Shown here piece after piece: positions 1 through 13,768 of a stretch of DNA of 38,223 nucleotides. Origin of the DNA: a virus. Position numbers and translations under genes: made by a program. The stretch lies in the IMG/VR virus record IMGVR_UViG_3300013006_002411, positions 1 to 38,223 of that record; one strand, written 5' to 3'. Below the pieces are notes generated by a model that worked only from the letters and a program-made list of their open reading frames with translations, searched no databases and was not told where the DNA came from. Each line of letters begins with the position of its first letter. Positions within the stretch are counted from its first letter, which is position 1.

Positions 1-1983
1 TCACCCAGCCGGGATGTTAAATACCGGTACAGGGTTCGTGCTGGCCACTTCTGTGGCTGTCGCATCACCAAAGACCAATCCCATCGACACCTGGAAGGCT
101 TGGCCACTGATACGCGGGATATTTAAGGACACCTCCACATAGCCATTGGCTACGTCTGTAGCACTCACAGTGCCTGTAGCAGGCGCAGGCATCACTATAC
201 CTGCCGTATTGGTCGGCGTGACTGTATAAGGCACTCCGAGCAAGCTCGACGACACTGGGAAGTGGAGAATCATCGGTGAGCTATCTGAGCTTGATGCACC
301 CATCCATGTGATTGGCAGACTATTCAAGAAGCCGGGGAAATACTGCCCTTGATGACCGGCCAGAGACAAGTCGACACTCATCACTATGCTGCCGTTCTGC
401 ACCCAGCCATACGAGATAATTACATCGCTATAATAGGACAAAGGCAGCGTGATATCCGCATAGCCTGCGGTCACGTCAGCCTGGGTGACAATGTAGAGTG
501 GCACGCCTGCAGATCCACCGGCCAGATAGACAAATATCTGATCACCGGCATGGGCATATGGCGGCAACGGCACATGGAGATGATAAGGATTGTCGTTGGC
601 GAAATACTCGGCCAGAGTGACAAGACCATCATTATTGGTATCGGCAGGGATCGTGGCCATAGGTGTGGCTGCGCGTGCGATGCCCTGATAGTCCTGGAAG
701 GACAATTGAGCGGTGGCCTGACGAGTCTGGGCAAATTGGGTGATATTTACTGTGACGGCCACAGTGACAGGCGGACTACCTGCTCCAGATGTCTGGGCAC
801 CTCCGCCGAGTGAGAAATCGACATAACCATTAGCCACGTCGGTCGAAGTCAGCACACCTTGAGCAAAAGTGGCACCCGTAGGATTTCCCCCGAAATAGCC
901 TGGAGGGATATATTGAGCGACATTCCCTTCCGGCGAGGCATAAATGGCCTGCCAAGATGCACCAGCAGTCATGTATTGAGGAATGGCCATGCGTCCAGTA
1001 AATGGACTATTGACTGCCTCACCCAGCTCAAGCACACCATCACCATTCGTATCCGCAGGGAAAGTCAGCGCGGTCTGCCCTACGGTCACACCGATCTGGA
1101 AGCCGTAAATGACACCGGTAGATGTCCGGGTACCATTGGTCACGCTACCAGTCACATTGTAATTGTTATATGGCGTCAAACCGGTGCAAAGGACTGAGAC
1201 AAAACCTGCTGCCACATCACCTGGCGTGACGACACCTGTTGCAGTACCGCCATTCTGATCAAGAGCAATCGTATAGGTTAATCCAACTGCAAGAGGTGTC
1301 ACTGTCATCTGGATCGTCGTAGCGTATGCTGGTGAATGTGAAGAGTCACTGCTCAGTACAAGGCCGAAACCATGGCCGGTGACTTGCCCTGAGATAATCG
1401 CACCAGGCGTGCCGTTTAGAGTAAATTGCGCAGTCACTGCCAAAGTCACACCATCATAGGAATATGCGCCCGGAATGGTCAGCTCTCCATTAGAGATAAA
1501 TGATGCAAGTTCACTCAATGGGAAGGTCTGATTGAACAAACCCATCGCGGGAATACTAAGCGTCATCGAGTCGGTCGATACATTGGCTGCGCTCGGTACC
1601 GGAATAATGATGTCTTCGCGGCCAGTGTAATCAAAGCCGGTCACATTACCATTGGCATCTGGCGCAGGATTAAACGTGATGCCAGGCGTCGGTGTAGGAG
1701 CCGGTGTGGCATTCGGATTGCCAATCGCAAAACTCTGCACATCCACGGTCTGGCTCAATGTCAACGCAGCCATAATCATCTTTTCAGCATTGCTGTTATG
1801 CCCATATAGAGCACGTGCTGTGCTGCGATCAACGAGGTCGACAGGGCCACTTGCTTCAACCAGTGGCGTATCGATGGTCAAGAAGAGCACGCGGATGATA
1901 TTAGCAGGCAGCCCAGTACGGCTGGTATCCAGGTCGAAATCCACATATGTACCAGGTGTACGGATTCCGGAAGGAATAGTCAT
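1..1983 (-). CDS. Sheath N-domain fused to Ig-like, Ca-loop tail adhesin
   Basis: A 660-aa protein with its stop codon at the window edge. Residues 1 to about 90 closely match the N-terminal piece of this phage's own tail sheath (12616-12897): both begin MTIPSGIRTPGTYVD and share RTGLP and MTAAL/MAALTL-like blocks. After a TPAPTPTP linker come about 550 residues of beta-rich, Thr/Ser/Gly-rich sequence resembling Ig-like adhesin repeats. It includes two EF-hand-like loops, near residues 310 (DTNGDGVLELGE) and 450 (DTNNDGLVTLAE). No transmembrane segment or signal peptide is seen. It is the last visible gene of the tail operon, after a fibre gene, where host-range or decoration proteins usually sit. 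I infer a virion surface protein anchored through the sheath-type domain. The family of the C-terminal part is not recognised. Confidence 0.7.
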   Translation of the reverse strand: MTIPSGIRTPGTYVDFDLDTSRTGLPANIIRVLFLTIDTPLVEASGPVDLVDRSTARALYGHNSNAEKMIMAALTLSQTVDVQSFAIGNPNATPAPTPTPGITFNPAPDANGNVTGFDYTGREDIIIPVPSAANVSTDSMTLSIPAMGLFNQTFPLSELASFISNGELTIPGAYSYDGVTLAVTAQFTLNGTPGAIISGQVTGHGFGLVLSSDSSHSPAYATTIQMTVTPLAVGLTYTIALDQNGGTATGVVTPGDVAAGFVSVLCTGLTPYNNYNVTGSVTNGTRTSTGVIYGFQIGVTVGQTALTFPADTNGDGVLELGEAVNSPFTGRMAIPQYMTAGASWQAIYASPEGNVAQYIPPGYFGGNPTGATFAQGVLTSTDVANGYVDFSLGGGAQTSGAGSPPVTVAVTVNITQFAQTRQATAQLSFQDYQGIARAATPMATIPADTNNDGLVTLAEYFANDNPYHLHVPLPPYAHAGDQIFVYLAGGSAGVPLYIVTQADVTAGYADITLPLSYYSDVIISYGWVQNGSIVMSVDLSLAGHQGQYFPGFLNSLPITWMGASSSDSSPMILHFPVSSSLLGVPYTVTPTNTAGIVMPAPATGTVSATDVANGYVEVSLNIPRISGQAFQVSMGLVFGDATATEVASTNPVPVFNIPAG

Positions 1984-10504: not shown

Positions 10505-10717
10505 TCACTTTTTTTTACGCCTCGCGGCGACATACGTCACCGGCTCTTCAACATCGGGTTGCTTACCTTGATCACGGGCCACTTGAGAAGGCTTAGATCC
10601 ATTCTTTGGCTTGCTACGCGAAGGATAAAGATCCTTGGCAATTTGGACTGCATCAGCCGCACTGAGACTTTTGATAATCTCCTCCGGAAATCCTTCATCC
10701 CGGAGGATCCTCATCAC
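10505..10717 (-). CDS. Tail assembly chaperone, frameshifted C-terminal part
   Basis: A 70-codon reading frame after the gp41-like chaperone and before the tape measure, the place of the frameshifted chaperone extension in long-tailed phages. It lies in the -1 frame relative to 10732-11046. The -1 frame stays open upstream of the nominal GTG start through the end of gp41, with a possible slip at the Lys codon of GAAAAGGAG. No Shine-Dalgarno precedes the GTG or the next ATG. The product (EGFPEEIIKSLSAADAVQ, then a basic tail ending RRKKK) is charged and helical. The long gp41-extension fusion is inferred by analogy with known tail frameshifts; independent initiation is the alternative. Confidence 0.6.
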   Translation of the reverse strand: MMRILRDEGFPEEIIKSLSAADAVQIAKDLYPSRSKPKNGSKPSQVARDQGKQPDVEEPVTYVAARRKKK

Positions 10718-10731
10718 ACGGACGAGATTTA

Positions 10732-11046
10732 TCAGGCCACTTGTGCGGTCTGTGCGGCCATCCGCTCCTTTTCTTCGAGCGCCTCACGCAAGCCGATCAG
10801 ATAGACACGGTTCTGATTGGCAGATGTGATCAACTGCTCGTAGGTCACTTGGGTGGCACCTTCAGCACCGTGAGTCCAGGTGAGCATAGAGGCCAGCTCA
10901 TTGACCTGGACATACTGACCTTGTTTGGCTTTGCTGATCGCGGACAGGCTTTCCTCCATGGTCAGGGCAGACATGGTGACTTCCTGCATTGGCTGGCCAT
11001 TGACCACGATAGGAACAGGCAGCTTGCCTTCTATAGAGATACCCAT
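10732..11046 (-). CDS. Tail assembly chaperone, Mu gp41-like
   Basis: A 104-aa protein between the tail tube and the tape measure. The N-terminal part (IEGKLPVPIVVNGQPMQEVTM) and the helical part beginning LTMEESLSAISKAK fit the small tail assembly chaperones of the E/gp41 type. These bind the tape measure protein while the tube polymerises. Its 3' end overlaps, in the -1 frame, an open stretch leading into 10505-10717, the classic arrangement for a frameshifted longer form. The identity rests on size, composition and gene order more than on strong motifs. Confidence 0.7.
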   Translation of the reverse strand: MGISIEGKLPVPIVVNGQPMQEVTMSALTMEESLSAISKAKQGQYVQVNELASMLTWTHGAEGATQVTYEQLITSANQNRVYLIGLREALEEKERMAAQTAQVA

Positions 11047-11049
11047 GGA

Positions 11050-11421
11050 TTAAGACTCCTTAATTTTGTCGAGGGCGTACATTTCAAGCGAACGCTTAGC
11101 CTCGCCTCCATCAGTGAAGGTGTCGCCAACGGTGGTGACGCCGACACCGGTATAGGTAGTCCGATTTGTACCATCCAGAGATTGGATGGTGATGGTGGCA
11201 CCAGAGATGGTGTCCCAAGCCAGATCACCTGTCTCAGGGATCACGACCTCGACCGAAAGTGCTATTGACGAAGTAGTTTTACATTCGCGCTGCACTCGGC
11301 CATTCGAGTTCATGGTCGAGACTGGCTTGCGACCTGCCGTGATCTTTGGTGTGCATGAGGTGCAGTCCACCTCCTGACCATTCACGTAGAGCACAATCGT
11401 ACCGACGACTTCCGTACCCAT
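11050..11421 (-). CDS. Tail tube protein (Mu M family)
   Basis: A 123-aa protein in the tube position directly after the sheath. It begins MGTEVVGTIVLYVNGQEVD and contains the tube-family block KPVSTMNSNGRVQR, followed by beta strands ending GGEAKRSLEMYAL, close to the Mu M pattern. Length agrees with the Mu tube (about 118 aa). It should polymerise into the inner tail tube, surrounded by the sheath made from the three reading frames upstream. Confidence 0.85.
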   Translation of the reverse strand: MGTEVVGTIVLYVNGQEVDCTSCTPKITAGRKPVSTMNSNGRVQRECKTTSSIALSVEVVIPETGDLAWDTISGATITIQSLDGTNRTTYTGVGVTTVGDTFTDGGEAKRSLEMYALDKIKES

Positions 11422-11434
11422 TGCTTATACCTCT

Positions 11435-12238
11435 TTAGTAGACATTTAAAGTGACAGCAGTAACATGCATGCCTCGCACCCAATGAGCAGGTACCTGCAC
11501 ATCAGCCTGCGTCAGATCTTGTGCATCCTGAGCCACGGTCAGCTGATTCTGATCTGCGCGGACATCTTCAAGAATCTCTGCGTCCTCAAGCGCCATATAG
11601 GCAGTGAGGAGCGCCGTGCGAAGCGTAGAACGCGCATCAGAAGTATTTTTCTGACGTGGGAAAGCGCTTTTGACAGCACGAGTCACCTTACGCACATATG
11701 CCAGCACCAAAGGGCCATTCACATCGAGCATGATGGTGTCTGGTGTACCATCTGGCTTTTGCTGATAAGTGGTGATCAGTCGCACGATCTTTGGCACACC
11801 GTCATCACCAGTTGCAACCACTGCCACACCGGCATTGAGTGCCTGCTCGATGCGGGAACGAGTCAGCGTGAACTTGGGATCCACGGCAGTCAGACCAGGC
11901 AGCTCGATATCATCGAACGGCACCGCAGGATCTGCACCACTGGCCATGGCTGCTGCAATGGACGCAGACAGCTGAGGCAGTTGGGTGGTGCCGTGGTAGC
12001 ACACCGCAACGAAGCGGTAGTTGCTGAGCGACTCAGCATAAGCCGCAAAAGTCGTGGCAGCATCGATGTCGTTGAACGGTACGACCAGGATGGCGTCGTG
12101 CTGCTCAATTGGGCCAGATACGGTATTCAGATAGTTCTGCCATGCGGCAGCATCTGCCTCTGCAGTGATTGAGCTGTCCAGGGCGATGATGGTATGCCCG
12201 AGCGGTTCAATCACGTTCAAAATATCTTGCAAAGCCAT
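11435..12238 (-). CDS. Tail sheath, C-terminal core (split gene, part 3)
   Basis: A 267-aa protein equal to the C-terminal half or more of a Mu L-type sheath. Recognisable are HDAILVVPFND, a hydrophobic ALRG-like YHGTTQLPQL region, the block IVRLITTYQQKPDGTPDTIMLDV (near-universal in Mu-like sheaths) and the terminal DQNQLTVAQDA and VRGMHVTAVTLNVY strands. The normal sheath start (IRTPGTYVEFD-type) is missing here and is found in a separate frame at 12616-12897. The ATG has its own good ribosome site (GAGGTGA, 5 bases upstream), so this part is translated independently. It lies in the same frame as part 2, after one TAA and four codons. This is the part that forms most of the contractile core. 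Confidence 0.85.
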   Translation of the reverse strand: MALQDILNVIEPLGHTIIALDSSITAEADAAAWQNYLNTVSGPIEQHDAILVVPFNDIDAATTFAAYAESLSNYRFVAVCYHGTTQLPQLSASIAAAMASGADPAVPFDDIELPGLTAVDPKFTLTRSRIEQALNAGVAVVATGDDGVPKIVRLITTYQQKPDGTPDTIMLDVNGPLVLAYVRKVTRAVKSAFPRQKNTSDARSTLRTALLTAYMALEDAEILEDVRADQNQLTVAQDAQDLTQADVQVPAHWVRGMHVTAVTLNVY

Positions 12239-12250
12239 TACATCACCTCG

Positions 12251-12592
12251 TTATACAGCTGGAATAAGACAGACTTGGAAACCGTCGCGTCCTGGCAACT
12301 CCTGATAGGTTGGATTGCTCACGTCTGCGACTGGTGTCGTGAAGATGGCAGATCCGTCGCTGGTGTAAACCTTCATCCGGATATTGCCGCCACCCGCCCA
12401 TTGCACGTAGTAAAAATAGTTATCCTCTGAGGCACTCACTCTGACATCGCTTTGCAGCGTTGGCAGTACCGTGTTAAACCAATAGCCCAGAGACTGATTT
12501 AATGGTACGTGGTAGGTTGTCCCATTGATCTCAACCACCCACGGCACCGTTACATTGGACGAAACAAAGTGATAGCCATTCGTCCAGTTCAC
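12251..12592 (-). CDS. Tail sheath, middle or protruding domain (split gene, part 2)
   Basis: A 113-codon frame from a GTG to TAA, open further upstream without stops to the slippery site at 12634-12640. The product is rich in aromatic and beta-forming residues (WVVEINGTTYHVPLNQSLGYWF, split here as two parts: WVVEINGTTYHV and LNQSLGYWF). Such a strand-helix pattern, VNG-x-Y-x-V then an amphipathic helix, resembles the variable inserted domain of Mu-like sheaths. No Shine-Dalgarno precedes the GTG, so translation probably comes from a -1 frameshift out of part 1. It has no clear homologue that I can name. Part 1, 2 and 3 together have about the length of an ordinary Mu L sheath. Confidence 0.6.
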   Translation of the reverse strand: MNWTNGYHFVSSNVTVPWVVEINGTTYHVPLNQSLGYWFNTVLPTLQSDVRVSASEDNYFYYVQWAGGGNIRMKVYTSDGSAIFTTPVADVSNPTYQELPGRDGFQVCLIPAV

Positions 12593-12602
12593 CGCACTAG
12601 AA

Positions 12603-12640
12603 GCCCCCTCGCAACTTATGCTGGAGGCACCCCCTTTCCC
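12603..12640 (-). promoter_or_regulatory. Candidate -1 ribosomal frameshift signal in sheath gene
   Basis: Read on the - strand, codons CTG GGA AAG GGG GTG give the in-frame heptamer G GGA AAG (12640-12634), the same slippery sequence used in lambda G-T, overlapping a second possible heptamer A AAG GGG. Five bases later GCCTCC (12628-12623) can pair with GGGGGC (12608-12603), a 6-bp stem with a 14-base loop. The -1 frame then runs open into part 2. A one-base indel in the G5 run is the alternative. Confidence 0.6.
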
Positions 12641-12897
12641 AGCGCTTGCACATTCACTTGAGTGTTGACAGCAAGCGCAGCGGTCATCATCTGCCCGGCG
12701 ATACTTGAGACACCGAGGGCAGCATCTGCCGTCGAGGTGTCATAGATCGTGACCGGCAGCGTCTGGCCATCTGTTTGAAACCGATCTGCTGTGATGAAGA
12801 GCAGCTTCTGAGGATTCAGTGGCAGACCTGTCCGCTGGGTATCCAGGTTGTAGTCCACATAAGTCCCAGGTGTCCGGATTCCTGATGGAATTGTCAT
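12616..12897 (-). CDS. Tail sheath, N-terminal core (split gene, part 1)
   Basis: A 93-aa protein beginning MTIPSGIRTPGTYVDYNLD, the typical N-terminus of Mu L-type sheaths (RTPGTYV-E/D-F/Y-D). It then has strands LLFITAD, VTIYDTSTADAALG and the helix GQMMTAALAVN. A normal sheath would continue for about 400 more residues, but here the frame stops at TAA 12616-12618 after GKGVPPA. A slippery site lies seven codons before that stop. The same domain, about half identical, begins the 660-aa protein at 1-1983. In known sheaths this region contributes the first core strands and the N-terminal arm that links neighbouring subunits. Confidence 0.8.
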   Translation of the reverse strand: MTIPSGIRTPGTYVDYNLDTQRTGLPLNPQKLLFITADRFQTDGQTLPVTIYDTSTADAALGVSSIAGQMMTAALAVNTQVNVQALGKGVPPA

Positions 12898-12910: not shown

Positions 12911-13768
12911 TTACTGAAGTGTCAAAGAGGCACTGGTGGGATTGGAGTTGATGCCAGACCCAGTGATCTGCACATTGACATCCATCACCACCGAGTGGCC
13001 TGTCGAAGACAGCGTGCCTGCCAGATTGACCGATCCAGCGGATATATCAGTCGAGGTCAGCGTGTATGGGCTGACGCTATAGACGCCAGCTGCAGGCGAG
13101 CCATTCTCGGAGAAGTTCGCATTGGTCAGGATCTGGTCACCGGCTTGTACGTCCGTGCTCGGCAGATCTACTTTGATCGAGAGACTGGAGCCAAGCGTGT
13201 ATTCCGTGGTTTCAAGGATGCCGTCCTGGTTCACGTCCGCAGGGAATGTCACCGAAGTCGGCGCACCGATTACCACGCGAGTAGAGCTGCTGCTATTAAG
13301 CGTGCCACCACTGGCCAGCGATTGATTCTGCACCATGGTGCCATAGCCCCAGTTCTGTGGCTGCAAGGTGGTTTGCACGTTATACAGACCATTCACAGGA
13401 GCGACACCAGCTTGCGGCACAGAGGTAGCTACATTGACGGTCTGTGCGACTCCAGAGAGGTTGATCACCTGAAACTGCAGGACACGCACACCAGGATCAA
13501 GCAGCAGTTGGACGCCCTGATCAGCAGAGGTGTCGGCAGGGATCAAGATAGCTGCTGTAGCATTCGCGCCGGTGATGGTGAGCGGGCCAGTCAGTGGCGC
13601 AGTTGCATCGAAGTTAGCAGCAGTACCGGCACCAGTACCGACACTGCCTCCATTCAGATCCTGGACAGCAGCCACGAGGGCATTAAACTTCGTCAGAAAT
13701 TCGCCGGAAGACAGATCGCGGGTATCGACGTTGAGAGTGAAAGATCCTGAAATCGTAGAGCCTGTCAT
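12911..13768 (-). CDS. Ig-like, Ca-loop protein upstream of sheath
   Basis: A 285-aa beta-rich protein placed between gp37 and the sheath, where Mu has only the small gp38. The first 80 residues (FLTKFNALVAAVQDLNGGS and a Gly/Ala/Thr linker) could be an attachment region. The rest resembles bacterial Ig-like repeats. It contains an EF-hand-like loop DVNQDGILETTE preceded by TFPA, and later GDQIL, the same combination seen twice in the 660-aa protein (FPADTNGDG, IPADTNNDG, GDQIF). No signal peptide or membrane segment is seen. A virion decoration or adhesin role is inferred from its repeats and position; no specific family is recognised. Confidence 0.65.
   Translation of the reverse strand: MTGSTISGSFTLNVDTRDLSSGEFLTKFNALVAAVQDLNGGSVGTGAGTAANFDATAPLTGPLTITGANATAAILIPADTSADQGVQLLLDPGVRVLQFQVINLSGVAQTVNVATSVPQAGVAPVNGLYNVQTTLQPQNWGYGTMVQNQSLASGGTLNSSSSTRVVIGAPTSVTFPADVNQDGILETTEYTLGSSLSIKVDLPSTDVQAGDQILTNANFSENGSPAAGVYSVSPYTLTSTDISAGSVNLAGTLSSTGHSVVMDVNVQITGSGINSNPTSASLTLQ

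Follow-up and report, generated by a model that had tools for sequence, protein, structure and literature searches.

A 38,223-base record of a Mu-like phage (the whole stretch of DNA that was analysed, called the window below) has a split tail sheath gene, which very probably carries a lambda-type programmed -1 ribosomal frameshift; a minority long product would be made by it and displayed sparsely on the contractile sheath. An N-terminal sheath piece (N-core) has the heptamer G GGA AAG in its reading frame close to its stop codon, the -1 frame is open across this site, the arrangement is conserved in relatives, and the C-terminal sheath piece (C-core) is a separate ORF.

Organization of the sheath genes

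The structural genes of the window lie on the - strand. Three ORFs, namely the N-core, a -1 frame ORF and the C-core, are located between a 285-aa gene (13768..12911) and the tail-tube gene (11421..11050). The N-core (12616..12897, - strand; 93 aa), which is the frame-0 product, corresponds to the N-terminal part of a Mu-type sheath: it matches the tail sheath family phrog_5292 (E 6.7e-22) and phrog_165 over its first 92 positions (E 8e-10), and in the Mu sheath (PDB 9khy) residues 8-93 are matched by the N-core family profile (A2) with an E-value of 2.3e-7. The C-core (11435..12238, - strand; 267 aa) has its own start and a GAGGTG ribosome site, and matches PF04984 (E 1.2e-7), PF17482 (E 6.6e-7) and positions 213-491 of phrog_165. 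Homology to the Mu-type sheath core is present at both the N- and C-terminal ends (phrog_5292/165, PF04984, PF17482, PDB 9khy), while the single polypeptide of ~490 aa of a Mu-type sheath is not present here, the N-core and the C-core being separate ORFs. The original prediction had named the N-core and the -1 frame ORF sheath parts 1 and 2; the N-core is indeed sheath, but the C-core is a third chain with its own start. The -1 frame extension ('part 2'; 12251..12634, - strand) codes for 127 aa after the slip, its stop codon being included in the coordinates, with cysteines at residues 8 and 122, and has no family match in Pfam, PHROG or NCBIfam.

A second sheath N-core (phrog_5292, E 2e-19) is found at the start of a 660-aa gene (1..1983, - strand) that adjoins a tail-fibre gene. 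Its DNA is 81% identical to that of the first N-core over 78 bp, and it is joined in frame to repeated DxNxDG-type domains. This gene may provide a display version that is always long, or act as a donor for recombination. The stretch 'FPADxNxDGxLE' is common to the 660-aa gene and the 285-aa gene (12911..13768, - strand) directly upstream of the N-core; in relatives the place of the latter is taken by an optional gene with the conserved N-terminus RITGRDxxTGxDxxKLNALFxAVExLGG and a variable C-terminal part.

The slippery site and its surroundings

At the site, the N-core frame reads CTG GGA AAG GGG GTG CCT CCA GCA TAA. As predicted, the heptamer G GGA AAG (12634..12640, - strand) is in the N-core frame near its end, and the frame-0 stop TAA (12616..12618, - strand) follows 15 nt after it. 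A -1 slip would give the product ...A L G K G G A S S I S C E G A S S A V N W..., with 127 residues past the slip, and the -1 frame proved to be open through the site up to the stop at 12251. The earliest possible start in this frame is a GTG 14 codons past the slip site; no SD-like motif was found in the 16 nt preceding it, in line with the claim that part 2 has no ribosome site of its own. The heptamer by itself means little, since GGGAAAG occurs in the window in 5 copies against 3.5 expected. What goes beyond chance is its exact codon phase, its position and its synonymous conservation in 26 divergent relatives.

After a spacer GGGGT (12633-12629), GCCTCC (12628-12623) can pair with GGGGGC (12608-12603) in a possible 6-bp stem that includes one G-U pair (12603..12628, - strand); the region has a predicted energy of -14.7 kcal/mol and a z-score of -2.0. 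The predicted spacer and stem are therefore present in the window, but they are not a feature of the family: over 29 relatives the mean z was -0.77, with stems in only a few, and we rejected the downstream stem as an essential stimulator. The overlapping heptamer A AAG GGG, also pointed out originally, met the same fate as a working site, being found only in the window and not kept in relatives. The lambda G-T shift has a ratio of ~30:1 (about one long product in thirty) and no clear stimulators (PMC5009743), so that a missing downstream structure is no obstacle for a site of this type.

A conserved GTG codon (12655..12657, - strand), a possible stimulator, lies 15-17 nt upstream of the heptamer. 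The Val codon at positions -17..-15 is GTG in 24/25 cases among frameshift types, compared with 1/15 among fused and split types. For the 30 nt upstream, pairing with the 16S tail is predicted at -6.6 kcal/mol in frameshift types versus -3.8 kcal/mol in non-frameshift relatives (Mann-Whitney p 1e-4, not corrected for relatedness). Most frameshift loci have no AGGAGG core upstream of the heptamer; SD-like cores occur in L194 (AGGAGG, ~20 nt upstream) and L095 (GGAGG, ~14 nt upstream). It is possible that the GTG region acts as a weak Shine-Dalgarno-like stimulator.

Sheath layouts among relatives

Relatives were collected by searching viral contigs and Acinetobacter/Moraxellaceae genomes with C-core and N-core queries. 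The 96 distinct N-core loci fall into four layouts: fused, split, frameshift and in-frame insert. In the fused layout (L022 and others) one chain of 355-365 aa (365 aa in the L022 type) consists of the N-core, a short linker and the C-core, with no extra domain; a few longer, distant sheaths also belong here. The split layout, with 46 loci counted by the rule '114-119 aa' (phrog_5292 type), comprises an N-core ORF of ~115 aa, then one or more fibre-like genes, then a C-core with its own start. The frameshift layout accounts for 29 of the 96 loci, the window included. In the in-frame insert layout (L069 and L192) the N-core continues into an extension without a heptamer. Such in-frame fusions without the slippery site had been named beforehand as evidence against frameshifting; they exist, but they point to the long product being used. 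A further locus of this layout, the Moraxellaceae locus L193, keeps GTG GGA AAG and yet has an in-frame extension (271 aa), so that a slip there would truncate the product; its near relative L194 is an ordinary frameshift type.

In all 29 frameshift loci the heptamer is at the same aligned place and in the same codon phase, the frame-0 stop follows 0-36 nt after it, and the -1 frame stays open across the site. An end of the -1 ORF falls within the sequence in 26 of the 29 (the other three run off the locus); of 25 loci in which its distance to the C-core is measurable, 21 have this end 1-27 nt ahead of the C-core. Although the frameshift class was chosen by the heptamer, this choice does not create the result, since every early-stopping N-core ORF (<112 aa) among the loci examined has the heptamer.

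In many Mu-like phages of Acinetobacter (L003-L020, L023 and similar loci) a large fibre-like gene interrupts the sheath between N-core and C-core. The inserted genes encode 596-1228 aa, start with MAQQ... and belong to phrog_23037/14083, one of them also matching the tail-fibre family phrog_38670. A fibre-like insert between N-core and C-core is another use of the same place.

The phage collection held no isolated phage with the frameshift layout, only distant sheaths such as that of SuMu. Genomes sampled evenly from the order, class and phylum yielded no frameshift type outside the Acinetobacter centre; apart from that centre they contained only full-length open sheaths of ~470-550 aa. A tree of the N-core (82 rows, 89 columns), which is weakly resolved, needs 8 layout changes over all groups, and frameshift types stand on many of its branches, interspersed with fused, split and in-frame forms. 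Taken without a fixed root, the tree can be reconciled with a frameshift type that is old and with layouts that switched repeatedly. As layouts interconvert on it, the extension would appear to be dispensable over evolution.

Conservation and selection across the site

Codon conservation, which the original prediction had proposed as a check, was measured in 26 non-redundant N-cores (<85% DNA identity to each other, median 66%). At the heptamer, Gly is encoded by GGA in 26/26 and Lys by AAG in 26/26, whereas elsewhere in the same genes GGA makes up 14% of Gly codons and AAG 21% of Lys codons. The codon preceding GGA is NTG in 26/26. Other conserved N-core columns use two to six codons each, with GAT (24/25) and GTG (24/25) as nearly fixed exceptions. 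In the per-base profile, positions -1 to +6 of the heptamer carry 2.0 bits of information, and the bases that follow ~1.1 bits or less.

Conservation at the protein level also begins at the slip. An [IV]SC.GA-like motif is found soon after it in many loci, mostly upstream of any start codon. The dN/dS was computed in closely related pairs: for L031/L159 it was 0.08 for the extension as a whole and 0.04 in the 19 codons preceding any start, and for L084/L100 and L090/L093 the extension values were 0.18 and 0.23. Judged from these ratios, the -1 frame is under purifying selection. The in-frame extension of L069, which has no heptamer, shows the same ISC...FC termini as the frameshift extensions, indicating that the joined protein is the functional product. 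Three canonical marks of -1 frameshifting are found here, namely X XXY YYZ in the zero frame, an open and constrained -1 ORF and synonymous conservation at the site; the proposal of programmed -1 frameshifting in the N-terminal part of a sheath is thereby strongly supported.

The extensions

The extensions are 62-628 residues long after the slip, mostly 122-628, the shortest being that of L175 (62). By BLASTP (E 1e-3) the 29 extensions fall into 8 linkage groups, with that of the window alone in its own group and the largest group joined through partial matches of shuffled units. About two thirds have a Cys near each end, the C-terminal-side cysteine often lying 5-13 residues from the end of the extension, and the longer extensions have further Cys pairs every ~110 residues, as if cysteine-bracketed units of ~110 residues, with putative disulfides, were repeated. 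Two extension types, L062 and L107/L108, contain BspA-type leucine-rich repeats (PF13306).

Part 2 had been interpreted as the protruding domain of the sheath. Profile comparison showed no similarity between the extensions and the corresponding SuMu sheath domain, and with no family match either we rejected part 2 as the Mu outward domain; it has no sequence relation to that domain and looks instead like a swapped-in variable domain. No Ig-like family match for the extension of the window was found in Pfam or PHROG, and a search of the PDB with the extension profile gave only a weak match to a fimbrial subunit (E 0.022), which was not used. The rapid exchange of extensions between phages suggests a role in surface binding (adsorption) rather than in assembly.

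Proposed mechanism and alternative explanations

From the sequence features described above we infer the slippage itself, its ratio, the incorporation of the product into the sheath, its display on the outside and its binding function. Most ribosomes would stop at the TAA at 12616 and release the N-core; from this and the separately translated C-core a minimal sheath of two chains would be built, which corresponds to the single 365-aa chain of relatives. A smaller number of ribosomes would move back by one base on G GGA AAG and produce the N-core with a C-terminal extension; this long product would enter the same sheath lattice and show its extension sparsely on the outside. In the Mu sheath, the N-terminal end comprises the N-arm of the inter-ring handshake and a tube-touching helix (72-86), and domain III faces outward (PMC11915804). 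As the N-core covers Mu residues 8-93, with the N-arm and the helix, it could by itself join the C-core in the lattice, and the added chain could exit outward. G_GGA_AAG is highly shift-prone in E. coli and yields about 1/30 long product in lambda (PMC5009743), and we would therefore expect a sheath mainly of plain N-core and C-core, with a few per cent of the subunits extended.

Part 2 could be a gene in its own right, with no frameshift, whose translation begins by re-initiation or at a GTG of its own past the N-core stop. Possible starts do lie soon after the junction in L021, L083 and L119, in L021 with AGGT 7 nt upstream of the ATG. We nevertheless regard this as very improbable, since in five members (L048, L090, L095, L104 and L107) none of ATG, GTG and TTG occurs in the first 49-56 codons of the -1 frame, protein-level conservation starts at the slip site, ahead of any start, and separate translation would leave the invariant GGA AAG without a reason. 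An own start for part 2 was likewise rejected for the window, whose first GTG has no SD. Scarcely more credible, and if anything a little less so, is slippage of the polymerase rather than the ribosome on the G and A runs as the source of the long product. Sequence cannot fully tell the two apart, and the window has GGGAAAGGGGG; however, polymerase slippage usually needs runs longer than three, the tandem-slippage phase X XXY YYZ is kept everywhere, and no relative needs a longer run. The least probable alternative, to which we give almost no weight, is a one-base indel or sequencing error in a formerly continuous gene. It could appeal to the in-frame relatives L069, L192 and L193 and to the G5 run beside the site in the window, but the same interruption in the same direction recurs, with invariant codons, at 29 loci from many genomes and contigs, and the -1 ORF is under purifying selection. 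These 29 parallel loci rule out a pseudogene or a miscounted G run as a general explanation. A miscount of the G5 run, the other observation named in advance as contrary, is excluded because 25 other independent sequences share the layout without a G5 run.

A real frameshift could also serve another end, the long product being not a sheath decoration but a minor component of the baseplate or first ring, or a non-virion factor like lambda gpGT. In favour of this possibility, neither G nor GT of lambda is found in mature virions (PMC5009743). We consider it unlikely, though well ahead of the three explanations above, since the N-core is homologous to assembled sheath and the extensions, unlike an assembly chaperone, are hypervariable and include BspA-type leucine-rich repeats. 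If sparse decoration of the sheath by a frameshift product is taken as the preferred reading, a broader proposal, which we put forward tentatively and at slightly less than even chances, is that the sheath is a general low-copy display platform. The small, conserved N-core of the two-chain sheath would be the docking plug, the lambda-type slip, aided by an element of the mRNA upstream, would set the decorated fraction, and horizontally exchanged modules would bind a receptor or glycan along the whole tail, not only at the baseplate. As part of the same tentative proposal, the modules would be cysteine-bracketed units of ~110 aa, single or in tandem, or leucine-rich repeats.

Comparison with known systems

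In the open-licence literature we found no report of a frameshift or split gene in a phage sheath, though an unseen report is possible, and the text of a 2022 study of sheath evolution contains neither 'frameshift' nor 'split'. The mechanism is known; its place, a contractile sheath gene, is apparently undescribed. If true, prophages of Acinetobacter and other Moraxellaceae would share a conserved programmed frameshift in the gene of a contractile sheath, and this would account for the truncated sheath piece and orphan ORF that annotation pipelines are expected to report. It would also suggest that the phage contractile sheath subunit can be two chains, as in T6SS, and that the sheath is a place where binding modules can be exchanged while contraction is left undisturbed.

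Frameshift sites of this kind are common in tail chaperones. The present site, as had been claimed, is in a sheath gene and not in the chaperone gene: it lies within sheath homology and upstream of the tube gene (11421..11050), not between the tail tube and tape measure genes, which is the chaperone position. A candidate tail chaperone ORF pair (104 aa and 70 aa) is present at 10505..11046 (- strand); its second frame is open for ~22 codons across the end of the first ORF before the first start of the second, and inspection by eye showed no evident canonical heptamer in it. For the tail chaperone pair of Mu, a -2 shift has been reported. With the lambda G/GT chaperone the sheath site shares the heptamer G GGA AAG, located towards the 3' end of a tail gene, the -1 shift and the lack of a conserved downstream structure. 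The two differ in what is joined, a structural sheath piece and a variable outer domain here, a chaperone and the conserved T domain in lambda, where neither product stays in the virion (PMC5009743).

Also comparable are the Ig-like and other domains added by frameshifting to capsid and tail proteins of T3, Lactobacillus A2 and Listeria A118/A500/PSA and in SPP1 gp17.1*, where likewise a minority of an abundant virion protein gains a C-terminal domain and relatives have in-frame versions (PMC5009743, PMC9022992). Those are capsid or non-contractile tail-tube proteins, whereas here the protein is a contractile sheath, the chain that gains the extension makes up just the N-terminal part of a subunit of two chains, and there is no Ig-like family match. 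The type VI secretion sheath TssB/TssC (VipA/VipB) is not known to have a frameshift or a variable display domain; it resembles the present system in that a contractile sheath subunit is made of two polypeptides. Its homology to phage sheaths is stated in PMC5807055. A further comparison is with the Mu tail sheath (gpL/gp39, phrog_165, PF04984) and two-domain sheaths. The Mu protein is homologous at its two ends to the N-core and C-core, and in Mu-type sheaths the additional domain sits between these core ends; here, in contrast, there are two chains, and the place of that domain would be held by an unrelated, exchangeable module expressed by frameshifting.
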